A DNA stretch of 64,000 bases from an uncultured Sulfitobacter sp. GTDB taxonomy: Bacteria > Pseudomonadota > Alphaproteobacteria > Rhodobacterales > Rhodobacteraceae. The stretch lies in contig NZ_CANMQD010000002.1 of the NCBI RefSeq assembly GCF_947499945.1, forward strand, positions 372,001 through 436,000, in the 5' to 3' direction. The translations under genes and the position numbers were made by a program. A model generated the notes under the pieces. That model was not told where the DNA came from. It worked only from the letters and a program-made list of their open reading frames with translations, and searched no databases. Positions 5,534-60,278 of the stretch are shown here, one piece after another; position 1 is the stretch's first letter; each line of letters opens with the position of its first letter.

Positions 5534-6114
5534 TGGTCTGCTCCGTCCATAGTCGGCAGATAGTTCTGCCCCGTTGCTGCCGATGCGATACGCAAGACGG
5601 CGATGTAAACGCTCACAAATGCGCTGGTGACTGCACCAAACATGCACAGCGCATAGCCCCACCAGACGGGAAATTCGAGTAGCAGCGAGGTCTGGCCCGA
5701 GTTCAGCTTGCTCAGCAGGCCAGCATAGAGTTGCACTGCGATCAGGACGAGGACAGTGGCAAACAGCACGTCGATCAGCATTTGTAAAATGCGGTCCGCA
5801 CGCGGTGAAAGTTTGGATGTAAAAATATCGACAGAGGCATGGCCACCCGTGATTTGGCACCAAGGCAGAAACGCAAAGATGGAAAAAGCCACGCCCGCCT
5901 CGATCAATTCGAAATCGCCATTGATCGGACCGATGCCCGCGTCAATCAACCATCGCGCAAGATCAGGCATGAGGGAGACAACTGCGTCGGCGTGCAGCAC
6001 ACCATTCAGGCTGCGCCCGACAATGGAAATACAGGTCAAGACGATCAGCGCAGTGAGCATGACGCCACCAAGATAAGCCATCGCACGCGACAATCTATAT
6101 ATGAAAGAGTACAT
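5530..6114 (-). CDS. dctQ: TRAP transporter small permease DctQ (TRAP-1)
   Basis: A 194-residue inner-membrane protein with four predicted hydrophobic segments, the standard DctQ topology. The family's central GHASVDIF sequence (after PWCQIT) is present. It pairs with DctM to form the membrane part of TRAP-1. Its stop codon overlaps the start of dctM, indicating translational coupling. An 85-bp gap with a GC-rich hairpin separates it from dctP upstream. It is slightly longer than usual because of a loop near residues 45-65. Confidence 0.9.
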   Translation of the reverse strand: MYSFIYRLSRAMAYLGGVMLTALIVLTCISIVGRSLNGVLHADAVVSLMPDLARWLIDAGIGPINGDFELIEAGVAFSIFAFLPWCQITGGHASVDIFTSKLSPRADRILQMLIDVLFATVLVLIAVQLYAGLLSKLNSGQTSLLLEFPVWWGYALCMFGAVTSAFVSVYIAVLRIASAATGQNYLPTMDGADH

Positions 6115-6149
6115 TCTGGCCCCACAAGTCGTATGGCAAATTATGCCTA

Positions 6150-6172
6150 GGCCGCCCCAATCCAGGGCGGCC
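6150..6172 (-). terminator. Intercistronic hairpin between dctP and dctQ (TRAP-1)
   Basis: Perfect 8-bp GC-only stem GGCCGCCC/GGGCGGCC with a 7-nt loop, located just after dctP and before dctQ on the minus strand. There is no long U-tract, so a partial terminator or RNA-stabilising hairpin that keeps receptor mRNA in excess over permease mRNA is more likely than full termination. Confidence 0.55.
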
Positions 6173-6199
6173 AGCCGTTTTATAGCTTGTCTATTGCGA

Positions 6200-7243
6200 T
6201 CAGAATTTTGACATAATGCCTTTGCATTCGCCTGACATCAGCGCCCGCGCCTCATCGATGATGGCTTGGCCATCACGGCCTTTGCTGTCCATATCAGCGA
6301 TCCAGTCTGCATAGATCGGCTCGATGACGGGCAGCCAGTCGGAGGCAGCAGTTGCTGCATCCACAGTGACAATGTTGTTTCCCATCTCAACTGCAATAAC
6401 CCGTGCAGGACCATCAGCATCAGCTTGAGTGCCGCCGGCAAAAACCGAGAAGTCCAAACCGGAGTTCGCGTCCATCACGGCCTTAAGATCGTCTGGCAGA
6501 TTATTGTACGAGTTGTTGTTCATCGCCAGAACAAATCCGAGGGTGTAAAGGCCAGGGCCTTCAAATTCGGTGTGGTTCTCAACCAACTCGGGCACTTTGA
6601 GCGCTGGTGTCACTTCCCATGGGATCGTGGTGCCGTCGATCACGCCTTTGGACAAGCCTTCGGCGATGGCAGGAACGGGCATGCCCACGGGAGTCGCACC
6701 CGTCCGCTCAAGCAGTTGGTTCACAAGGCGCGAGCCACCGCGAATTTTCATGCCTTCAAGGTCGGATGGAACTTCGACGGGATCAGACGTATGGAACATG
6801 CCGGGGCCGTGGACCCATGTCCCAAGGATATGCACATCCTTGAAATCTTCGCGCATATTTTTGTCGTACATCTTCCAATAGGCGCAGGAGGCGGCGCGCG
6901 CATCCTCGACCATAAAGGGCAGCTCGAACACTTCGGTTTCGGGGAAGCGGCCAGGTGTATAGCCTACAACGGTCCAGACGATATCTGCCACGCCATCAAC
7001 TGCTTGGTCGAGCAGCTCTGGTGGAGTACCGCCAAGTGCCATTGAGTTGAACATCTCAATCTTGATCCGCCCATCAGATTCCGTCGCAATGCGGTCTGCC
7101 CAAACAGAAAGAACTTGCTTGGGTACGTTGGCCTGCGCTGGTAGGAACTGATGCATGTTCAGCGTCACTTCTTGCGCCAGTGCTCCAGAAGCGGCAAAAG
7201 CCAATGCAGTCGCGCCCAAAAGCGTTGATTTCAGTTTATTCAT
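6200..7243 (-). CDS. dctP: TRAP transporter substrate-binding protein DctP (TRAP-1)
   Basis: Periplasmic receptor of TRAP-1, 347 residues. The start at 7243 gives a clear signal peptide (LLGATALAFAASGALA, cleavage before QEVTL) and is preceded by GGGAGAGA; a start five codons earlier would run through that ribosome site. The mature protein has the DctP fold, including GLKIRGG-like (EGMKIRGGSRLV) and the conserved substrate arginine region, followed by VDGTTIPWEV. The ligand cannot be read from sequence. First gene of a dctP-dctQ-dctM operon; the long upstream gap presumably holds its promoter. Confidence 0.92.
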   Translation of the reverse strand: MNKLKSTLLGATALAFAASGALAQEVTLNMHQFLPAQANVPKQVLSVWADRIATESDGRIKIEMFNSMALGGTPPELLDQAVDGVADIVWTVVGYTPGRFPETEVFELPFMVEDARAASCAYWKMYDKNMREDFKDVHILGTWVHGPGMFHTSDPVEVPSDLEGMKIRGGSRLVNQLLERTGATPVGMPVPAIAEGLSKGVIDGTTIPWEVTPALKVPELVENHTEFEGPGLYTLGFVLAMNNNSYNNLPDDLKAVMDANSGLDFSVFAGGTQADADGPARVIAVEMGNNIVTVDAATAASDWLPVIEPIYADWIADMDSKGRDGQAIIDEARALMSGECKGIMSKF

Positions 7244-7707
7244 AGTTCTCTCTCCCATTATCTTTCAGAGTTACACACCAAAGGCGGCTCTCTGCAAAGG
7301 GTCTTTGTGTAGCGGTTTTAAAACACGGCATTCCCGACCCTAATAGTTATGTGCCATACCTAAATACATTTGTCGCCTTGAATTATCACCTGCCAATTGT
7401 GAAGTTTGCAGTGATTTTTTGGAAAGTGGTCGTTTCCCCCTCGAAAATGCAGACAGGAATGCGAGGGGTAGGCAGCCCCGGCCGACCCAATCAGGGAACC
7501 TGTCCAGCCACAGGTTTCACATAGTTTTCGCATTTTCAGTGACCTCCAAACACCTTCATCGCCGGAATACTCGTTTATCATCTCTTCGTATTGCTGGCTC
7601 TGGGCTGAATTTTTTCTTCTTATGCTGACTGCACATGTACAGTCTATGGAAACTGTTGCACGGGTATTGCAGTATGATGAGAAGAGAATCCCCATGGAAA
7701 ATTTGAC
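7244..7707. other. Intergenic region between divergent operons (464 bp)
   Basis: Divergent gap between TRAP-1 and the protease-RimK-AstE operon. It is AT-richer than the flanking genes. Open frames on both strands (for example a 172-residue one on the minus strand from 7878) show no recognisable protein features and cross into the protease gene. Promoters for both operons must lie here; I could not assign boxes with confidence. Confidence 0.4.
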
Positions 7708-8184
7708 ATGACTCACGGCGCAACGGACCAGTCTCAGCCATTGATGATCATTGGCTGGCATGAATGTATCAGCCTGCCTGATCTTGGCCTCACCGATTTT
7801 GCCGTAAAGGTCGATACGGGTGCAAAAACCACTGCACTTCATGCTGTAGACATAGAGACCTATTATCAAAATGATCAAAAATGGGTGCGATTCCTCAGCC
7901 CTGATATCAAGGGGGAGCCGTCGCGTGTTCTGACGTTTCCGGTCTTCACCAAGCGCGCCATCACCAACACCAGTGGTATGCCAGAGACGCGTATCGTCAT
8001 CCGCACACCAATGATCCTTGCGGGTCGCAAGTGGAAAATCGACATCTCCCTGACGGACCGTGGCTCCATGCGGTTCCCCTTAATTCTCGGGCGGCGCGCA
8101 CTGCGTCATCACAATATCGCCGTTCATCCGGGCAAATCATACCTTGTCAGCACAAAGCCGGCATTTGAAGGAAACACACCATGA
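7708..8184 (+). CDS. Putative ATP-dependent zinc protease / retropepsin-like protease (RimB-type, PF05618)
   Basis: A 158-residue cytoplasmic protein of the family annotated as 'ATP-dependent zinc protease', more recently viewed as retropepsin-like. The signature [12 protein letters not shown] (D36-T37-G38-A39) supplies the DTGA active-site motif, and the C-terminal [25 protein letters not shown] is strongly conserved in the family. Members are often encoded beside rimK and are proposed to cleave or trim glutamate tails added by RimK. Here the stop overlaps the rimK start (ATGA), so the two are translationally coupled. The start is an ATG at 7708 with a weak GGAAAA site upstream. Confidence 0.85.
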
Positions 8185-54086: not shown

Positions 54087-54659
54087 CTAAAGGTAACGCC
54101 TCACTTTACCTTTGTAGGTCCTATAATCCGCCCCATAGACGTCTTCCAGCCAAGGTTCTTCAGCAAATGGCGCGGCCGCGAGAACGATGACGCCGAACGT
54201 GGCGACGCATGCCGCCCATCCTGACGCAGACAGTACGGCCCAGCCGATAAGGATGACCATGTCAGCAACGTATTGTGGGTTGCGAGAGTAGCGATAGAGG
54301 CCATCAGTCTTTAACTCGGCGACTTCGCCACTGGTCGCACCTAGGCCGATTTTTCTGACACCCATCCAGACAACTACATTCCCTGTGATCATTAAGCCAA
54401 GACCAATGGTCCACCGGGCCGGTGCTGGCCAGTCGAAACTGTTCCAGTCAGCGATGCCCAGCACGAAGGTCGCGATAAATATCGAGATCGTGGCAAGCCA
54501 GACTCGAAGCTTGATGCCGGTTGTGGCCTCCTTTGGGGGCCAGATACGACGCTCTGGGAATGCGATTGACCACCCGAAGGCCACAAGAAGGTAGCACTCG
54601 GCAATCCCACCGATGAAAATTGCGAAGACTTCGATATTGTTAAGCATGATCGTGTCCAT
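54087..54659 (-). CDS. Isoprenylcysteine methyltransferase-like membrane protein 1 (ICMT/PEMT family)
   Basis: A 190-residue membrane protein with five hydrophobic segments and the ICMT-type C-terminal signature (RNPQYVADMVILIGW, then AEEPWLEDVYGADYRTYKGKVRRYL). The RNPxY-EE-Y-Y pattern forms the SAM-binding pocket of the ICMT/PEMT family. Its start (54659, or 54647) lies inside the last codons of the CDF gene, so it is translationally coupled to it. It belongs to the MerR-controlled operon. The methyl acceptor is unknown; no prenylated protein is expected in bacteria. Confidence 0.82.
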   Translation of the reverse strand: MDTIMLNNIEVFAIFIGGIAECYLLVAFGWSIAFPERRIWPPKEATTGIKLRVWLATISIFIATFVLGIADWNSFDWPAPARWTIGLGLMITGNVVVWMGVRKIGLGATSGEVAELKTDGLYRYSRNPQYVADMVILIGWAVLSASGWAACVATFGVIVLAAAPFAEEPWLEDVYGADYRTYKGKVRRYL

Positions 54660-55320
54660 GGTTGTTTAGCGCCCCAGTATCTTCGCCTGAACGGAATTCC
54701 TGCCAAGCTTGAACCAGAATAAGCTCGGCCGATCTCAGAAACAGACCTGCCATAATGATCGCCACGATGAGATCAGGCCACGCCGAAGCCGTCAGAAAGA
54801 CTGCAAAGCTTGCAATCATGACCGCGACATTGCCAATGGCGTCATTGCGCGAACACAACCAGACAGAGCGGACGTTTGCATCACCGTCCTTGTAGCGCAT
54901 CAAAAGCAAGACACTTGCCAAGTTGGCAGCAAGCGCCAGCAACCCGATCAAGCCCATAATCTGCGCGGTAGGAACGCCCAGAATGAATATCTGGTAAACC
55001 GTCGAGCCAAAGACCCAAAGGCCCATGAACAACAGGCTAAGCCCTTTGATGAGCGCAGCGGTTGAACGTACCTTAAGGCTCATCCCGATGACTGCGAGGC
55101 TGACGCCGTAGGTTAATGCATCCCCCAGAAAGTCGAGAGCATCTGCTTGAAGTGCCTGTGATCCAGCAAGTTTGCCCGCCGAAATTTCAATGAAAAATAT
55201 GGCAGCGTTTATGAAGATAACGATCCAAAGAACCCGCTTGTAGGCGGGATCGACACCATCAAATTTTGGATTACCGGAGCATCCGCACAAGACTTCGGTT
55301 TCGTTGATTGTCTCAGTCAT
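54640..55320 (-). CDS. Cation diffusion facilitator family transporter (short form)
   Basis: A 226-residue metal/proton antiporter with six hydrophobic helices. The TM2 site is ADALDFLGDA (D-x3-D) and TM5 is CSRNDAIGN (D-x3-N), close to but not the usual H/D-x3-D in each. The cytoplasmic C-terminal metal-binding domain of classical CDFs is missing; the protein ends soon after TM6 with a short His-rich tail (NHGHDHA). The N-terminus has a CGCSG motif. Start at 55320 is inside the upstream methyltransferase gene. Probably exports Zn, Cd, Co or another divalent metal under MerR control. Confidence 0.87.
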   Translation of the reverse strand: MTETINETEVLCGCSGNPKFDGVDPAYKRVLWIVIFINAAIFFIEISAGKLAGSQALQADALDFLGDALTYGVSLAVIGMSLKVRSTAALIKGLSLLFMGLWVFGSTVYQIFILGVPTAQIMGLIGLLALAANLASVLLLMRYKDGDANVRSVWLCSRNDAIGNVAVMIASFAVFLTASAWPDLIVAIIMAGLFLRSAELILVQAWQEFRSGEDTGALNNHGHDHA

Positions 55321-55786
55321 TTGATGATTCCAGTTTTGTGCGAATGAAAAGCCAGCGCGGGATACGCGCGGCATAATCTTGATAAGGTTTGCCGAATAAT
55401 TGGATCAGGACCCGTTCTTCGCCCCTGATTTGAAATCGATCAATCATCAGAAAGAACGCGATTACAGCCAAGACTGCGCTGAGAGCCCCGAGCCATAGGA
55501 CAAAAGCGATCAAGAGGATCAGCATTCCCACGTACATCGGGTTGCGCGTTATGCTGTAGATGCCGCTGGTTACGAGCGTGGTCGCCGCCTCTGGTGACTG
55601 CGGATTCACTGTCGTTTTGTGACGCGCGAAGCTCACGACGGCGGGCAGCAGAAACGCGACTCCAGCGATTGCTTCAAACGCAATTAGCCATACAGGTGCA
55701 TGGAACGCCGCTAGTGGTGCGAAAGCAGCAAGCAAGCTTGCCATCACCATGCAAAATGCCAGTTGCGCGAGTGGGGGTATGTTCAT
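55313..55786 (-). CDS. Isoprenylcysteine methyltransferase-like membrane protein 2
   Basis: A 157-residue integral membrane protein with four helices. The C-terminal signature ITRNPMYVGMLILLIAF ... RGEERVLIQLFGKPYQDYAARIPRWL matches the ICMT/PEMT family (R-N-P-M-Y, E-E, F-G, Y-x2-Y). It is the first gene downstream of the MerR-type promoter at 55816-55846 and overlaps the CDF start by 8 bp, so it is made together with the metal transporter. Methyl acceptor unknown. Similar but not identical to the three other family members in the cluster. Confidence 0.85.
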   Translation of the reverse strand: MNIPPLAQLAFCMVMASLLAAFAPLAAFHAPVWLIAFEAIAGVAFLLPAVVSFARHKTTVNPQSPEAATTLVTSGIYSITRNPMYVGMLILLIAFVLWLGALSAVLAVIAFFLMIDRFQIRGEERVLIQLFGKPYQDYAARIPRWLFIRTKLESSND

Positions 55787-55815
55787 GAAGACGCTTCCAT
55801 ATTCGAGTCTTCACA

Positions 55816-55846
55816 ACTATAATTCCTCTAGCTACTAGAGCTTCAA
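55816..55846 (-). promoter_or_regulatory. MerR-type promoter and operator
   Basis: On the minus strand, -35 TTGAAG (55841-55846) and -10 TATAGT (55816-55821) are separated by 19 bp, the long spacer typical of promoters activated by MerR-family proteins. Centred between them is a perfect dyad CTCTAG-TAG-CTAGAG (55826-55840). It drives the ICMT2-CDF-ICMT1 operon and lies 12 bp upstream of the divergent merR start. Confidence 0.8.
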
Positions 55847-55858
55847 GAGGAAAATTCG

Positions 55859-56269
55859 ATGTTTTCAATCGGCCAGCTTTCCAAGCGCACGGGCGTCAAA
55901 ATACCGACCATTCGTTACTATGAACAAATGGGTTTGATCGATGAACCTGGGCGTTCAGAAGGCAATCAACGCAGATACACCAAAGATGGCCTAAGCCGCT
56001 TGTCCTTTATCCGTCACTCTCGTGATCTGGGATTTACGATAGAAGACATTAGGGGGCTTCTGGACCTTAGCCAGCATCCAGAAGAACCATGCAATGATGC
56101 GCACAGCATTGCCGCCCAACACCTTCGAGAGGTTCAGAGCAAAATTACAAAGTTGCGACGATTAGAGCGTGAGTTGAAACGCATCACAAAGTGTGATGCT
56201 GGCAATATGGCTACCTGCGCGGTCATAGAAACGCTTGCTGATCACGGCCTCTGCGAAACGGAACACTGA
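55859..56269 (+). CDS. MerR family heavy-metal-responsive regulator (CadR/PbrR/ZntR-like)
   Basis: A 136-residue MerR-type regulator. The winged HTH (IGQLSKRTGVKIPTIRYYEQMGLIDEP...NQRRYTKDGL) lies in residues 1-70, then a long dimerisation helix. Cysteines C78, C112 and C120 (in PCND, KCDAG and ATCAV) match the metal-binding cysteine triad of CadR/PbrR-like members (roughly 78/112/120). Another cysteine and histidine sit in the C-terminal tail LCETEH. It is divergent from the metal transporter operon, whose promoter it should bind, activate and distort. The exact metal cannot be deduced. Confidence 0.9.
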   Translation: MFSIGQLSKRTGVKIPTIRYYEQMGLIDEPGRSEGNQRRYTKDGLSRLSFIRHSRDLGFTIEDIRGLLDLSQHPEEPCNDAHSIAAQHLREVQSKITKLRRLERELKRITKCDAGNMATCAVIETLADHGLCETEH

Positions 56270-56322
56270 ACCTCGTGCCTCTATAGGAACAGGCTGGAAG
56301 ATAATGCACGAGCAGCACTCAT

Positions 56323-56925
56323 CTAAGCACTGGTGCGTCGCGTCGTAATTTTCCGTTTTAACCGCAAAACTTGCAGCACAATCAATGGCGCAGACACGAT
56401 CATCGGTTCCCAAGGATCCTCCCAGTTGTTCAAGCTCAGGGCATGCAGCAACCCAAGAACGGCAGCAGCGTAAGCCCATCGTTGTAGCTTTTTCCATTGA
56501 CGCCCTAGCTTTCGGACTGCGACATCACTTGATGTGAACGCCAGCGGAACCATGATCAGCAGCGAAATCCAACCTGTCCAAATCTCCAGTATTGGCAGTT
56601 GCGAAACGACCTTCGAGAGCGATCCCGCATCCAGCAGGTAAAACAAGGTATGAAGCAGCGCGTAGCCAAAACTTGCGATGCCCTGATAGCGCCGATTGCG
56701 CAACAGCCAGACAGTAAAAACGCCCCGTGGCCAGACATAGCGCAAGGGTGTCGCCGTCAGTGCAAGGATAAACAGAATGGCCGATAAAGCACCGGTTGGA
56801 TTCAACACATCATCTGCGATGATCGCGCCCTGCTGGGTGAAGGTGACACCCCACGATATGGCCGGAAGGGCGAGGCAAAGCCAGACAATAGGAGTGGTTC
56901 GTGATGTGCGCGGTTTCACAGCCAA
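56323..56925 (-). CDS. MsrQ-like ferric reductase transmembrane protein
   Basis: A 200-residue membrane protein with six hydrophobic helices of the ferric-reductase-like (FRD) domain. RRYQGIASFGYALLHTLFYLL and the LGLLHALSLNN segments carry histidines suitable for heme b, and SDVAVRKLGRQWKKLQRWAYAAA is closely like MsrQ, the heme membrane partner of the periplasmic MsrP methionine sulfoxide reductase. No msrP gene occurs in this window. Its start overlaps the end of the ICMT3 gene by 10 bp, so it is coupled to that gene. An MsrQ-type electron supply role is only inferred. Confidence 0.82.
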   Translation of the reverse strand: MAVKPRTSRTTPIVWLCLALPAISWGVTFTQQGAIIADDVLNPTGALSAILFILALTATPLRYVWPRGVFTVWLLRNRRYQGIASFGYALLHTLFYLLDAGSLSKVVSQLPILEIWTGWISLLIMVPLAFTSSDVAVRKLGRQWKKLQRWAYAAAVLGLLHALSLNNWEDPWEPMIVSAPLIVLQVLRLKRKITTRRTSA

Positions 56926-57359
56926 CGACGCACACGGGAGCGGTATGTTTCATACTCTGCACCGAAGGTTTCTTGCATAACTGCCTCTTCGAACCGCACA
57001 TACCAGCGGTCCAAAGTCACACAAAAGAATGCGGCTACAAGAAGCGGCGACGTCGACCCGAGCGCTATAGCAAACCCAACTGAACAAAGCGCAAAGCCAA
57101 GATACATGGGGTTCCTACTCAATGCGAACAGCCCCGTAGTCACAAGTTTTTCTGGCGCATCGAATGTCTTAATGTTGGTGCCGACCTGTTTGAACAGCCG
57201 CGCCCCCTTGGCCGCAATCAAAATGCCTATCGCCGCCGCAAACCCGCCAATCCATCGCACGGGCTGGGGGATTATGTCACCGACAGGCCAAGCATAGGCT
57301 GCGACAATCATGACGACCAAGGTCAGGAGAAGCAGAAGCGGCGGTAATACACGTTGCAT
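56916..57359 (-). CDS. Isoprenylcysteine methyltransferase-like membrane protein 3
   Basis: A 147-residue membrane protein with four helices. LSRNPMYLGFALCSVGFAIALG and FEEAVMQETFGAEYETYRSRVRRWL give the full ICMT/PEMT signature. It overlaps the MsrQ-like gene by ten bases, so the two are made together, unusual company for this family. Located 36 bp downstream of the fourth family member on the same strand. Methyl acceptor unknown. Confidence 0.84.
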   Translation of the reverse strand: MQRVLPPLLLLLTLVVMIVAAYAWPVGDIIPQPVRWIGGFAAAIGILIAAKGARLFKQVGTNIKTFDAPEKLVTTGLFALSRNPMYLGFALCSVGFAIALGSTSPLLVAAFFCVTLDRWYVRFEEAVMQETFGAEYETYRSRVRRWL

Positions 57360-57395
57360 TTGTTAGATCTTTCTTTGAGCTGTTTTGAGGCATTA

Positions 57396-58520
57396 TTAAA
57401 AGATCGGAACCTGACGACCGTTGTAGAATGCATCTTGTGGCGGCTCGTGCCTGTTCGTGATTTGCTGCGTTGAAAGGTCGATATGCACCTCTTCCAGCGG
57501 TGATTTGTTGACGGCCTCTCGAAGGATATTTGCTCCATCGTGGCCCGCGCCAAATTCAGCCTGAGTGAGGATAACTTTCCACTGAGTGGGGTCAGCATTG
57601 CGGGGAACGGAATGCCCGAAAGCCTCCCCAGCTGGCAGATGCATCGGTATCTCTGAAACGTACATCTCGGTTGGAAGCACATACGCCAACACCTGCCCAT
57701 GTGCGTCAGCCGCAGAAATCGTTTCCTGAACATCAACATCTGCCAAGACAATCTGGGCGACAGATGCAAGGTCAGCATCATCAATATGCGCCACAGACAG
57801 AAAGACGCCCGCGTCGGTGTCCACTGTATAAAGCGATCCTATGGCAGCAGAGCGCAGGCCGAATGCACCCGCCGTCACCAGTGCGACCGTCATCACAAAA
57901 CCAGCAAGGAGACCGAAGGTACTCATGGGCCCAGTGCCTGTGCGTTGGGATATGCGCGGCAAGAACATACCTGTCGTTTCCATATAGTCAGCATAGTCGG
58001 GAAATGACCGCAAACACTGTCGTTCCTCGCTGCGCGCAAGCAGCACATAGGCAAGGATCACACATGAGGTAGAGAACAACACAAGAAATCTAGGCCACAC
58101 CAACAGCATGCCCAAACTGGCGATGATTAACGCTAAATACTGCGGGTGGCGGATGTATCGGTAAACGCCCTCCTTCACCGCCCCACTTTTCGTGAGTTTG
58201 GCGCGGTAGACCTGAAAGACGCCTGCAACAAACGCAATAAGGCCACCGAATAGCAGGGCGAGGCCAAACAATTCGACATAGTTGAGCACCGCAGATCGGG
58301 TGTCTTCCACAAGGTGGGGAAGAATGAACCACAACGTCCAATCTGCAATTGGAAGCGCCTGAAGCCAGTCCATGCCTGGTCCGTAGACCGAATAAAAATA
58401 CGCCGCAAAAGGGCTGGCCATGTAAAAGAATTCAAACGCGATCAGGGCGTAGAATGCCGAGGCCGTCCAAAACAATCGCTTACTGCCTTTGGTGTCTTGC
58501 TCTGTCCCGTTGGTTGTCAT
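57396..58520 (-). CDS. Isoprenylcysteine methyltransferase-like protein 4 with C-terminal extracytoplasmic domain
   Basis: A 374-residue protein, about twice the length of the other family members. The first about 200 residues are an ICMT-like membrane domain with YRYIRHPQYLALIIASLG and RSEERQCLRSFPDYADYM. A further hydrophobic helix (LLAGFVMTVALVTAGAFGLRS) then leads to a C-terminal soluble domain of about 150 residues with no family I recognise, rich in aspartate and histidine near the middle. Start at 58520 is preceded by AGGGAG. It is the first gene of its transcription unit, divergent from a TetR gene. Confidence 0.75.
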   Translation of the reverse strand: MTTNGTEQDTKGSKRLFWTASAFYALIAFEFFYMASPFAAYFYSVYGPGMDWLQALPIADWTLWFILPHLVEDTRSAVLNYVELFGLALLFGGLIAFVAGVFQVYRAKLTKSGAVKEGVYRYIRHPQYLALIIASLGMLLVWPRFLVLFSTSCVILAYVLLARSEERQCLRSFPDYADYMETTGMFLPRISQRTGTGPMSTFGLLAGFVMTVALVTAGAFGLRSAAIGSLYTVDTDAGVFLSVAHIDDADLASVAQIVLADVDVQETISAADAHGQVLAYVLPTEMYVSEIPMHLPAGEAFGHSVPRNADPTQWKVILTQAEFGAGHDGANILREAVNKSPLEEVHIDLSTQQITNRHEPPQDAFYNGRQVPIF

Positions 58521-58748
58521 CTGGTTTCTCCCTGAAATGGTGCTGTTGAGTATCAAAATACGAGTTCAGGGCATCCAAAAGCTACTCGCCTTTGGTTAGT
58601 TGGGCGATCAGTTAGAAAGTGCTATGATTCAGTTGGTTACGATGAATGACGCAGGCCTCTCATAGTGATTGCTCACGTTTATGTTGTTTTCCATCGACGC
58701 CTGCCGCAGTTTGTTAGACAACAAACACGAATGATTGCTCACCTTAAA

Positions 58749-59357
58749 ATGCCCGAAAATATCAAAAAACTCACGCCGAGACGTCGACCAAAACAAGGGC
58801 GAAGCCGTGACACGGTTGAAGCCATTCTGACCGCGTCTCAGCAGATTTTGTTGCGGAATGGCCTTAAGGGGTTCAACACCAATGTTGTCGCTAAGCGTGC
58901 GGGTGTCTCGGTCGGTTCACTCTACCAGTTCTTTCCGGGCAAAGAGGCGATCCTTGCTGCCTTAGTGCGTGATATGCGCCGCGACATGCTTACGGATTTG
59001 ATTGCAGCACAGCAGGCATCAAATGCGGGTGTTCTTGCTGACGTCATCGGTGCAATGATCGACGCAAGCCTGAAGCACCACCTGCGCGCACCAGAATTAA
59101 CTGATATTCTGGAGCAAGCAGAAGCGCAGTTGCCGATGGACGCAGAAACCCAAGCGCTTAAATCCAACATGTTTCAGCTCGTTTTAGGGGTGCTTCAGCG
59201 CCACGCAATTGAGAATCCGCAGACCGTTGCGCAAGATGTTATCGCCATGTGTCATGGCATGGTCGATTCTGCGATTTCGGCAGGCGAGCGAGACTTTGAT
59301 GCAATTTCAAAACGACTTAGGCGGGCAACGATCAGCTACATAGCAGCGACATACTAG
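58749..59357 (+). CDS. TetR/AcrR family transcriptional regulator
   Basis: A TetR-type repressor of 202 residues from the ATG at 58749 (an ATG at 58731 and a longer frame from 58665 are also in frame). The HTH domain begins near RRPKQGRSRDTVEAILTASQQIL and continues to VSVGSLYQFFPGKEAI. It is divergent from the ICMT4-ICMT3-MsrQ-like transcription unit and is its likely controller, complementing the MerR protein that controls the other half of the cluster. Effector unknown. Confidence 0.85.
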   Translation: MPENIKKLTPRRRPKQGRSRDTVEAILTASQQILLRNGLKGFNTNVVAKRAGVSVGSLYQFFPGKEAILAALVRDMRRDMLTDLIAAQQASNAGVLADVIGAMIDASLKHHLRAPELTDILEQAEAQLPMDAETQALKSNMFQLVLGVLQRHAIENPQTVAQDVIAMCHGMVDSAISAGERDFDAISKRLRRATISYIAATY

Positions 59358-59465: not shown

Positions 59466-60278
59466 ATGAAAATACTCTTTCTTGGTGATGTGATGGGCCG
59501 CGCCGGGCGCCGCGCCATTACCGAAAATCTGGCCCGCTTGCGGACTGAATGGAAACTCGATTTCATCGTTGTGAACGGTGAGAACGCGACCTCTGGGATG
59601 GGCCTGTCTGGCAGCCATGCCAAGGATCTGCTGGAGGCGGGGGCGGATTGTCTGACGCTGGGGGACCACGCCTTTGATCAAAAGGACATGCTGGCCTTTA
59701 TCGAGCAGGAGCCGCGCATTATCCGCCCGCTAAATTTCTCCAAAAATGCACCGGGCAAGGGCGCGCGCCTGTTCAAGACGCGCACGGGCAAGCAGGTTCT
59801 GGTGACCCAAGCGCTTGGGCAGGTGTTTATGAAACGCCCCTACGACGATCCGTTCTCGGCGTTGGATACGGTGCTCAAGACGCATCCGCTGGGCGGTTTG
59901 GCCAATGCGATCATTGTGGATATCCACTGTGAGGCGACGTCCGAAAAGATGGCGACGGGGCATTGGTGTGACGGGCGCGCGTCATTGGTCGTCGGCACCC
60001 ATACCCATGTGCCAACCTCCGATGCGATGATTTTGAAGGGTGGCACTGCCTACCTGTCTGATGCTGGTATGTGCGGCGACTATAATTCCGTGATCGGGAT
60101 GGAAAAGACTGAGCCGCTGCGCCGTTTCATCACTGGCATGCCCAAAGAGCGGTTTTCCCCGGCCAATGGCGAGGCGACCCTTTCTGGTGTTTATGTCGAG
60201 ACGGATGACAAGACGGGCAAGGCCACGCGGATCGTGCCAGTGCGCCAAGGCGGACAGTTGCAACAGAGCGCCCCTTGA
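59466..60278 (+). CDS. ymdB: YmdB-type metallophosphoesterase (TIGR00282 family)
   Basis: A 270-residue calcineurin-like phosphodiesterase. Metal-site motifs GDVMGRAGR, VVNGENAT, GDHAFD and VGTHTHVPT are all present and in the family order. Bacillus YmdB hydrolyses 2',3'-cyclic nucleotides and affects cell fate and biofilm. Start at 59466 sits after GCCTCC; the longest frame begins 29 codons earlier without homology. Its stop overlaps the following transporter gene (TTGA). Confidence 0.92.
   Translation: MKILFLGDVMGRAGRRAITENLARLRTEWKLDFIVVNGENATSGMGLSGSHAKDLLEAGADCLTLGDHAFDQKDMLAFIEQEPRIIRPLNFSKNAPGKGARLFKTRTGKQVLVTQALGQVFMKRPYDDPFSALDTVLKTHPLGGLANAIIVDIHCEATSEKMATGHWCDGRASLVVGTHTHVPTSDAMILKGGTAYLSDAGMCGDYNSVIGMEKTEPLRRFITGMPKERFSPANGEATLSGVYVETDDKTGKATRIVPVRQGGQLQQSAP

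Follow-up and report, generated by a model that had tools for sequence, protein, structure and literature searches.

The 64,000 nucleotides from an uncultured Sulfitobacter sp. analyzed here (positions 372,001 to 436,000 of contig NZ_CANMQD010000002.1; hereafter the window) contain two neighboring units that encode four membrane proteins of the isoprenylcysteine methyltransferase (ICMT) type, named ICMT_A to ICMT_D. Each unit has its own divergent regulator: in unit 1 a MerR gene faces ICMT_A, a short CDF-type cation transporter and ICMT_B, and in unit 2 a TetR gene faces ICMT_D, ICMT_C and an MsrQ-like protein (MsrQ2). With moderate confidence we read them as two operons side by side, unit 1 being a mobile, metal-switched export cassette and unit 2 a separate TetR-controlled module that probably acts under the same stress; both operons were probably acquired. 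A preliminary description of this DNA had joined all these genes into one candidate system, and every gene that it named was found at or near its position in the open reading frame (ORF) listing of the window.

Four diverged methyltransferase-like proteins in two operons

The central claim of the preliminary description, four ICMT-like proteins within 4.5 kb, was borne out. All four genes lie on the minus strand and their products pass the curated cut-off of PF04191 (PEMT). The ICMT-type signature ascribed to them was also found: RNPxY or RHPxY plus EE is present in all four, and R126, P128, Y130, E167 and E168 are invariant across six aligned sequences, the four of the window and two from a further copy of unit 1 on contig C7 of the same genome. 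The alignment of the four proteins that had been proposed revealed common conserved residues, but ICMT_A, C and D are just 27-30% identical to ICMT_B.

The clustering had been called unusual, and a scan of 120 family genomes agrees with this. The source genome holds seven PEMT matches, four in the window, two in the unit 1 copy on C7 and one elsewhere. This is the highest number in the scan, in which 106 of the 120 genomes have a match and the other 119 have 0 to 4 (none in 14, three in 6, four in 2). No other PEMT pair less than 5 kb apart was seen among the matches listed for these genomes. The seventh PEMT gene (L002 5115-5678) sits in a different context from the window and C7 genes; we take its flanking genes to be chalcone-synthase-like and a large membrane transporter.

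In a phylogenetic tree ICMT_A, ICMT_B and ICMT_D each form one clade (support 100/99, 91/93 and 98/88). An origin of the four genes by local duplication was therefore rejected, and on this tree the four ICMTs are diverged lineages. ICMT_C adjoins ICMT_A. The best tree requires two changes for it, and a single change suffices in 5% of the bootstrap trees; long branches come together in this tree, the placement of two ungrouped rows is unsure, and ICMT_C may have a single origin. The idea that the four ICMTs are a single set of relatives or share one regulation was thus not upheld: they are diverged and belong to two operons with different regulators.

The reading frames of ICMT_A, CDF and ICMT_B overlap in unit 1, with ICMT_B overlapping the end of CDF, and in unit 2 the MsrQ-like frame overlaps the end of ICMT_C. 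Two starts were corrected in agreement with the relatives, that of CDF to 55320 (226 aa) instead of the longest-ORF start, and that of ICMT_D to near 58520 (374 aa, as in 374-aa relatives; longest ORF 57396-58556).

Features of the two units in the window (scores are Pfam bit scores)
Feature	Position	Strand	Remarks
ICMT_B, PEMT/ICMT-like membrane methyltransferase, 190 aa	54087..54659	-	PF04191 57.1 bits, over cut-off; last gene of unit 1
Short CDF-type cation transporter, 226 aa	54640..55320	-	Cation_efflux PF01545 56.3 bits (cut-off 26.6); no ZT_dimer match
ICMT_A, PEMT/ICMT-like membrane methyltransferase, 157 aa	55313..55786	-	PF04191 44.8 bits; first gene of unit 1
MerR-type promoter TTGAAG-19 bp-TATAGT with dyad CTCTAGTAGCTAGAG between -35 and -10	55816..55846	-	upstream of ICMT_A
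MerR-family regulator, CadR/PbrR/MerR-like, Cys78-Cys112-Cys120	55859..56269	+	divergent to unit 1
MsrQ-like ferric-reductase-type membrane protein (MsrQ2), 200 aa	56323..56925	-	Ferric_reduct PF01794 41.2 bits; last gene of unit 2
ICMT_C, PEMT/ICMT-like membrane methyltransferase, 147 aa	56916..57359	-	PF04191 53.8 bits
ICMT_D, ICMT-fold protein, 374 aa, conserved C-terminal domain (about residues 245-372)	57396..58520	-	first gene of unit 2
TetR-family regulator	58665..59357	+	PF00440, PF17918; divergent to unit 2

Unit 1 and its mobile relatives

MerR-type promoters combine a 19- to 20-bp spacer with a central dyad and are located divergently to their target operon. The intergenic region of ICMT_A and MerR has this layout, TTGAAG-19 bp-TATAGT with the perfect dyad CTCTAG-TAG-CTAGAG. 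The MerR box matched once in the whole window, at unit 1, compared with a mean of 0.00 in 100 shuffled sequences. A looser dyad, CTCTAGTNRCTAGAG, occurs in 22 of 182 loci (two of them pieces of the window), every one with MerR and CDF. Cys78, Cys112 and Cys120 of the regulator, which we assume to be the metal-ligand positions of CadR and MerR, align in all 14 regulators compared and also with the chains of CadR, the closest protein among solved structures. The regulator scores below every equivalog cut-off that names a metal (CadR-PbrR 111.7 against 151.45 bits, MerR 110.7 against 150.85 bits).

The short CDF protein carries a CGC motif at its N-terminus. An alignment of 15 CDF proteins revealed D-x3-D and C-x3-D at the positions where full-length CDFs have H-x3-D twice; these residues presumably form the transport site. 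C-x3-D together with an N-terminal CGC or GCC is common to all 11 close short CDFs aligned; a less closely related short CDF, encoded on a Phaeobacter plasmid, lacks it. ZT_dimer gave no match in the window CDF and is present in the full-length CDF of another genome (G237, locus L068). A sequence search against solved structures gave no match for the CDF. Domains and promoter agree with the preliminary description of unit 1 as a MerR-controlled cassette of metal type with two ICMT-like enzymes around a CDF transporter, and by these features unit 1 is probably a mobile cassette for thiophilic metals.

Unit 1 is mobile. The complete cassette is found on contig C7, on a conjugative plasmid of Sulfitobacter mediterraneus (L073) and in genome G730 (L206), and the examined stretches of all three contain unit 1 without unit 2. 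The C7 copy (L001, C7:36000-50000, at 5823-8005) encodes proteins that are 73-90% identical to those of the window. C7 is a contig of 107 kb, and it is probably a plasmid because some of its ORFs read, as far as we can judge, like ParB and single-strand binding proteins. A DNA scan of the genus (62 genomes, four candidates scored per genome) detected the complete unit 1 solely in the source genome and G730 and unit 2 solely in the source genome; shorter matches inside unit 1 were obtained in G726, G733, G734, G743, G754, G772, G774, G782 and G784.

The neighborhood of the CDF gene was compared with flanks of 1.5 kb, some of them cut by contig ends. Among the 20 family loci with a close CDF, MerR is present in 16, an ICMT_B relative after CDF in 8, a transglutaminase before it in 7 and ICMT_A in none. 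Nine more distant family loci contain MerR once and no ICMT, and 29 loci from a class scan contain MerR in 25 cases, ICMT_A in one and ICMT_B in none.

ICMT_B relatives are present in 88 plasmid records (E <= 1e-5), most frequently of Pseudosulfitobacter (27) and Phaeobacter (15), but also of Enterococcus (6) and haloarchaea. Besides L073, five plasmid regions with annotation were available (Phaeobacter, Sagittula, Thioclava, Paracoccus and Jannaschia), and in all five the ICMT_B relative is accompanied by CDF genes and a helix-turn-helix (HTH) regulator. Transglutaminase, DsbB, a thioredoxin-domain protein and SCO accompany it in three of them (L214, L216, L218). These operons from Roseobacteraceae and Paracoccaceae, with the order HTH regulator, short cation transporter, transglutaminase, CDF and ICMT_B (rearranged in L218), resemble unit 1 in having an ICMT_B relative beside CDF genes and an HTH regulator on a plasmid. 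They differ from it in the transglutaminase and the full-length CDF, whereas unit 1 has ICMT_A and a lone short CDF. A transglutaminase-like gene also precedes CDF in the metal operons of Roseobacteraceae type L035, L037, L039, L040, L042, L045 and L049.

At the right end of the region, the gene at 59466, which we take to be YmdB-like, and those after it are largely syntenic in three relatives (one gene is missing in L209). The genes that precede it in these relatives are without match in the window; they are presumably 5-formyltetrahydrofolate cyclo-ligase-like and, in L208 and L209, MgtE-like. The comparison therefore places a synteny breakpoint near 59.36 kb; the genes to its right are conserved across the genus, and both units are on the acquired or rearranged side.

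Unit 2 and its adjacency to metal cassettes

The domains of the second unit, two ICMTs and an MsrQ-like protein next to a TetR gene, were confirmed as described, with the MsrQ-like protein under the MsrQ cut-off. This protein resembles MsrQ, the heme subunit of MsrPQ, in its Ferric_reduct domain and in a score of 63.6 bits with the MsrQ equivalog. It differs from MsrQ in that this score is below the cut-off of 130 bits, in that no msrP was found among the ten profiled neighbors of the gene, and in one His of the canonical genome copy that reads Gln. A true msrPQ system was rejected by the score and by comparison with the canonical MsrQ on contig C1. That copy is preceded by an ORF that we take to be MsrP-like.

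The core TetR/ICMT_D/ICMT_C recurs in two gammaproteobacterial contigs, L074 and L079, in which TetR is again divergent to ICMT_D (50% and 45.5% identical), and ICMT_C lies next to ICMT_D in L074, L075, L079, L087 and L125. ICMT_D belongs to a widespread family: 477 of 8000 scored candidates matched at E <= 1e-10, with loci in records of many phyla. Of 385 genomes scanned across the class with the ICMT_D alignment, two gave a match, the source genome and G527. The conserved C-terminal domain has no Pfam match; residues 245-372 may resemble the N-terminal domains of copper amine oxidases in structure, although the likeness is weak, and a Foldseek search with the ICMT_D model gave no match at E <= 0.001.

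Co-occurrence of both units beyond the window is supported by three kinds of evidence. On the Chromatiales contig L079, MerR and a short CDF are found with the promoter layout of unit 1. The contig also encodes TetR/ICMT_D/ICMT_C, a further ICMT and a mercuric reductase (MerA) over its cut-off, as well as DsbB-like and thioredoxin-like genes and two genes that we assume to encode TRAP-like transporters. In the source genome, mercuric reductase gave 12 matches, none over the MerA cut-off. Genome G237 combines MerR, transglutaminase, full-length CDF and ICMT_B with ICMT_C and a tail piece of ICMT_D (L068 6130-10166). The tail piece lies next to tniQ, tniB and a transposase gene, and unit 2 was probably cut there by this transposon module, which we take to be Tn5053-like. 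In the tree, ICMT_C from the window joins those from G237 and L079 in one group (98/90). Finally, relatives of the different genes occur on contigs of equal size: 350,547, 4,693 and 384,263 bases for ICMT_D and ICMT_A, 350,547, 4,693 and 5,458 bases for ICMT_A and MsrQ2, and five sizes for ICMT_D and MsrQ2. Jittered lists gave 0.06 to 0.11 coincidences on average and at most 3. The comparison used 23 of 120 rows for ICMT_D, 36 of 120 for MsrQ2 (one is the source genome itself) and 30 of 120 for ICMT_A, and a shared contig is deduced here from its size, not from sequence. Judged by these neighborhoods, unit 2 came to adjoin metal cassettes more than once.

The recurrent adjacency could mean that all genes form one functional system, in which the four ICMTs would methylate the same metal, metalloid or metal-thiolate stepwise, CDF would export the product and the MsrQ-like protein would supply electrons. 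The neighborhoods of the window, L079 with its MerA and, in part, G237, the equal contig sizes and the common ICMT_C group argue for this. We nevertheless regard it as improbable, as the two units have different regulators, the four ICMTs are deeply diverged, and each unit exists alone, unit 1 in the three places named above and TetR/ICMT_D/ICMT_C in L074, whose 7.3 kb contain no MerR, CDF or MerA match. Moreover, 79 of 80 ICMT_D loci lack the set of MerR, CDF and MerA; this absence applies to the sequence available, as several of these loci are small or truncated at the end of a contig. Single weaker matches of metal type were found near ICMT_D in L115, L145 and L146. The most far-reaching version, a composite thiophilic-metal system with cobalamin-free methylation of a metal(loid) or metal-thiolate by ICMT-fold enzymes, CDF export and electrons from the MsrQ-like protein, in which ICMT_D, with its additional conserved domain, would be the founder of a novel class of membrane enzymes that methylate metals or metal-thiolates, is very improbable. 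The preliminary notion of one metal-linked locus therefore survives in the co-occurrence of the units, while the separate operons and regulators speak against it; likewise, the proposed check across genomes returned joint occurrence in L079 and partly in G237, together with unit 1 alone in three places and the ICMT_D loci without the metal set.

The opposite view, that unrelated operons were merely gathered on one acquired stretch and that unit 2 has a non-metal role, for example in the methylation of lipids or quinones together with a short-chain dehydrogenase, is a tentative alternative. A short-chain dehydrogenase gene lies directly upstream of ICMT_D in L086, L089, L093, L094 and L136, which are genomes of Balneolaceae type (presumably the family of Fodinibius), and in G047 and G080 TetR and MsrQ2 are accompanied by an ORF that we take to be SDR-like. 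The TetR control of unit 2 and the wide distribution of ICMT_D without metal genes point in the same direction. Against it stands the repeated adjacency to metal cassettes in genomes of Roseobacteraceae type and in the Chromatiales contig. A relative of a Crp-like regulator was also observed near ICMT_D in L086, L093, L094 and L136.

Several results weigh against two acquired operons that serve in the same stress. The breakpoint near 59.36 kb could reflect a rearrangement instead of an insertion. The strict promoter layout was found in just 11 of 26 loci tested (the window, the C7 copy, G730, L079 and 7 of the 20 close family CDF loci), and the Sulfitobacter plasmid L073 and G726 are not among them. 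A search of the window with up to 3 mismatches detected no MerR box at unit 2, and no operator or dyad between TetR and ICMT_D is shared among the window, L074, L079 and L083. None of the four ICMTs is named by an NCBIfam functional model above its cut-off, and the near absence of metal sets at ICMT_D loci belongs here as well. One shared regulator for both units thus found no support in the sequence, the sole MerR box detected in the window being located at unit 1.

Proposed function and relation to known systems

For the two side-by-side operons we propose the following course. The CadR/MerR-like regulator would bind a soft metal through its Cys triad and remodel the promoter with the 19-bp spacer, so that ICMT_A, CDF and ICMT_B are turned on. 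The short CDF pump with its Cys site would export the metal, and ICMT_A and ICMT_B would use S-adenosylmethionine to methylate an accessory nucleophile at the inner membrane, which would lower the metal damage. The methyl acceptor would most likely be a thiol or metal-thiolate or an anionic lipid group. Unit 2 would answer another signal through TetR and may handle a consequence of the same stress, probably by membrane repair or detoxification; its MsrQ-like protein may bind heme, and the two units may cooperate. Seen directly are the genes, the sequence of the promoter, the mobility of unit 1, the divergence of the ICMT lineages and the repeated adjacency, from which this course is deduced.

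A narrower proposal overlaps with this course and fixes the acceptor: the ICMTs of unit 1 would act on an anionic lipid or phosphate group of the cell envelope, and its methylation would reduce the binding of metal to the membrane. It is suggested by the match of ICMT_A to the model of LmtA, the lipid A 1-phosphate methyltransferase of Leptospira (43.6 bits), and by envelope genes (for L,D-transpeptidase, DsbB and a thioredoxin-domain protein) beside the plasmid cassettes L214 and L218. The LmtA score is far under the cut-off of 325 bits and the isoprenylcysteine methyltransferase model scores slightly higher (48.9 against 160 bits), which makes this acceptor rather unlikely. These values and that for MddA (25.6 against 270 bits) are the best NCBIfam scores, all of ICMT_A.

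The czc and ncc clusters possess efflux pumps of the resistance-nodulation-division (RND) type under two-component control, and RND pumps comprise about 1000 aa. No ORF of more than 590 aa, and thus no RND pump, was found beside the units in the 50-64 kb part of the window. Unit 1 resembles CzcN/NccN of Cupriavidus metallidurans, an ICMT-type membrane protein inside a heavy-metal efflux cluster (PMC7563307, PMC3056050, both available in part). The accessible text describes CzcN as a membrane-bound ICMT homologous to NccN (PMC7563307), places a czcN homolog of Pseudomonas putida, annotated as S-isoprenylcysteine methyltransferase, between cusF and copF, and states a role of czcN in czc regulation (PMC3056050). 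The unit differs in that it stands under a MerR regulator and combines a short CDF with two ICMT genes, with CzcN compared by its published description; in three stretches of pMOL30 examined, no czcN or ICMT annotation was present. A second parallel, in the available part of PMC8478169, are merR-copA clusters with cupredoxin and ICMT from Alteromonas and others, many of them on genomic islands. They are likewise MerR-linked mobile metal clusters with an ICMT gene, but contain a P-type ATPase and cupredoxin in place of CDF and two ICMTs. Ma-ICMT (4A2N) and eukaryotic ICMT are also among the closest known systems. One further paper concerns a cadmium-resistant Pseudomonas that produces methanethiol (PMC7912247), and another reports an ICMT-like protein lowered under UVB, for which its accessible sections make no metal link (PMC6308992).

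The suggestion of an undescribed kind of system could therefore not be maintained, as ICMT genes beside metal pumps are already known from the published parts cited; the variant here is two ICMTs around one short CDF. Literature searches on isoprenylcysteine, CDF, MerR and related terms returned, in the text available, no description of such a double-ICMT cassette, and among the matches listed no title joined ICMT and mercury methylation. No description of the ICMT_D family turned up in the searches, none of which was aimed at ICMT_D by name.

In the accessible literature, ICMT-like genes such as czcN are part of metal-resistance clusters of several bacteria, and no substrate is named for them there. 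A mobile cassette this small, which has its own promoter, occurs naturally twice in one genome and has relatives on plasmids, offers a way to find the role of ICMT in metal resistance. The most interesting part is ICMT_D, a widespread family with a tail that is not matched by Pfam.

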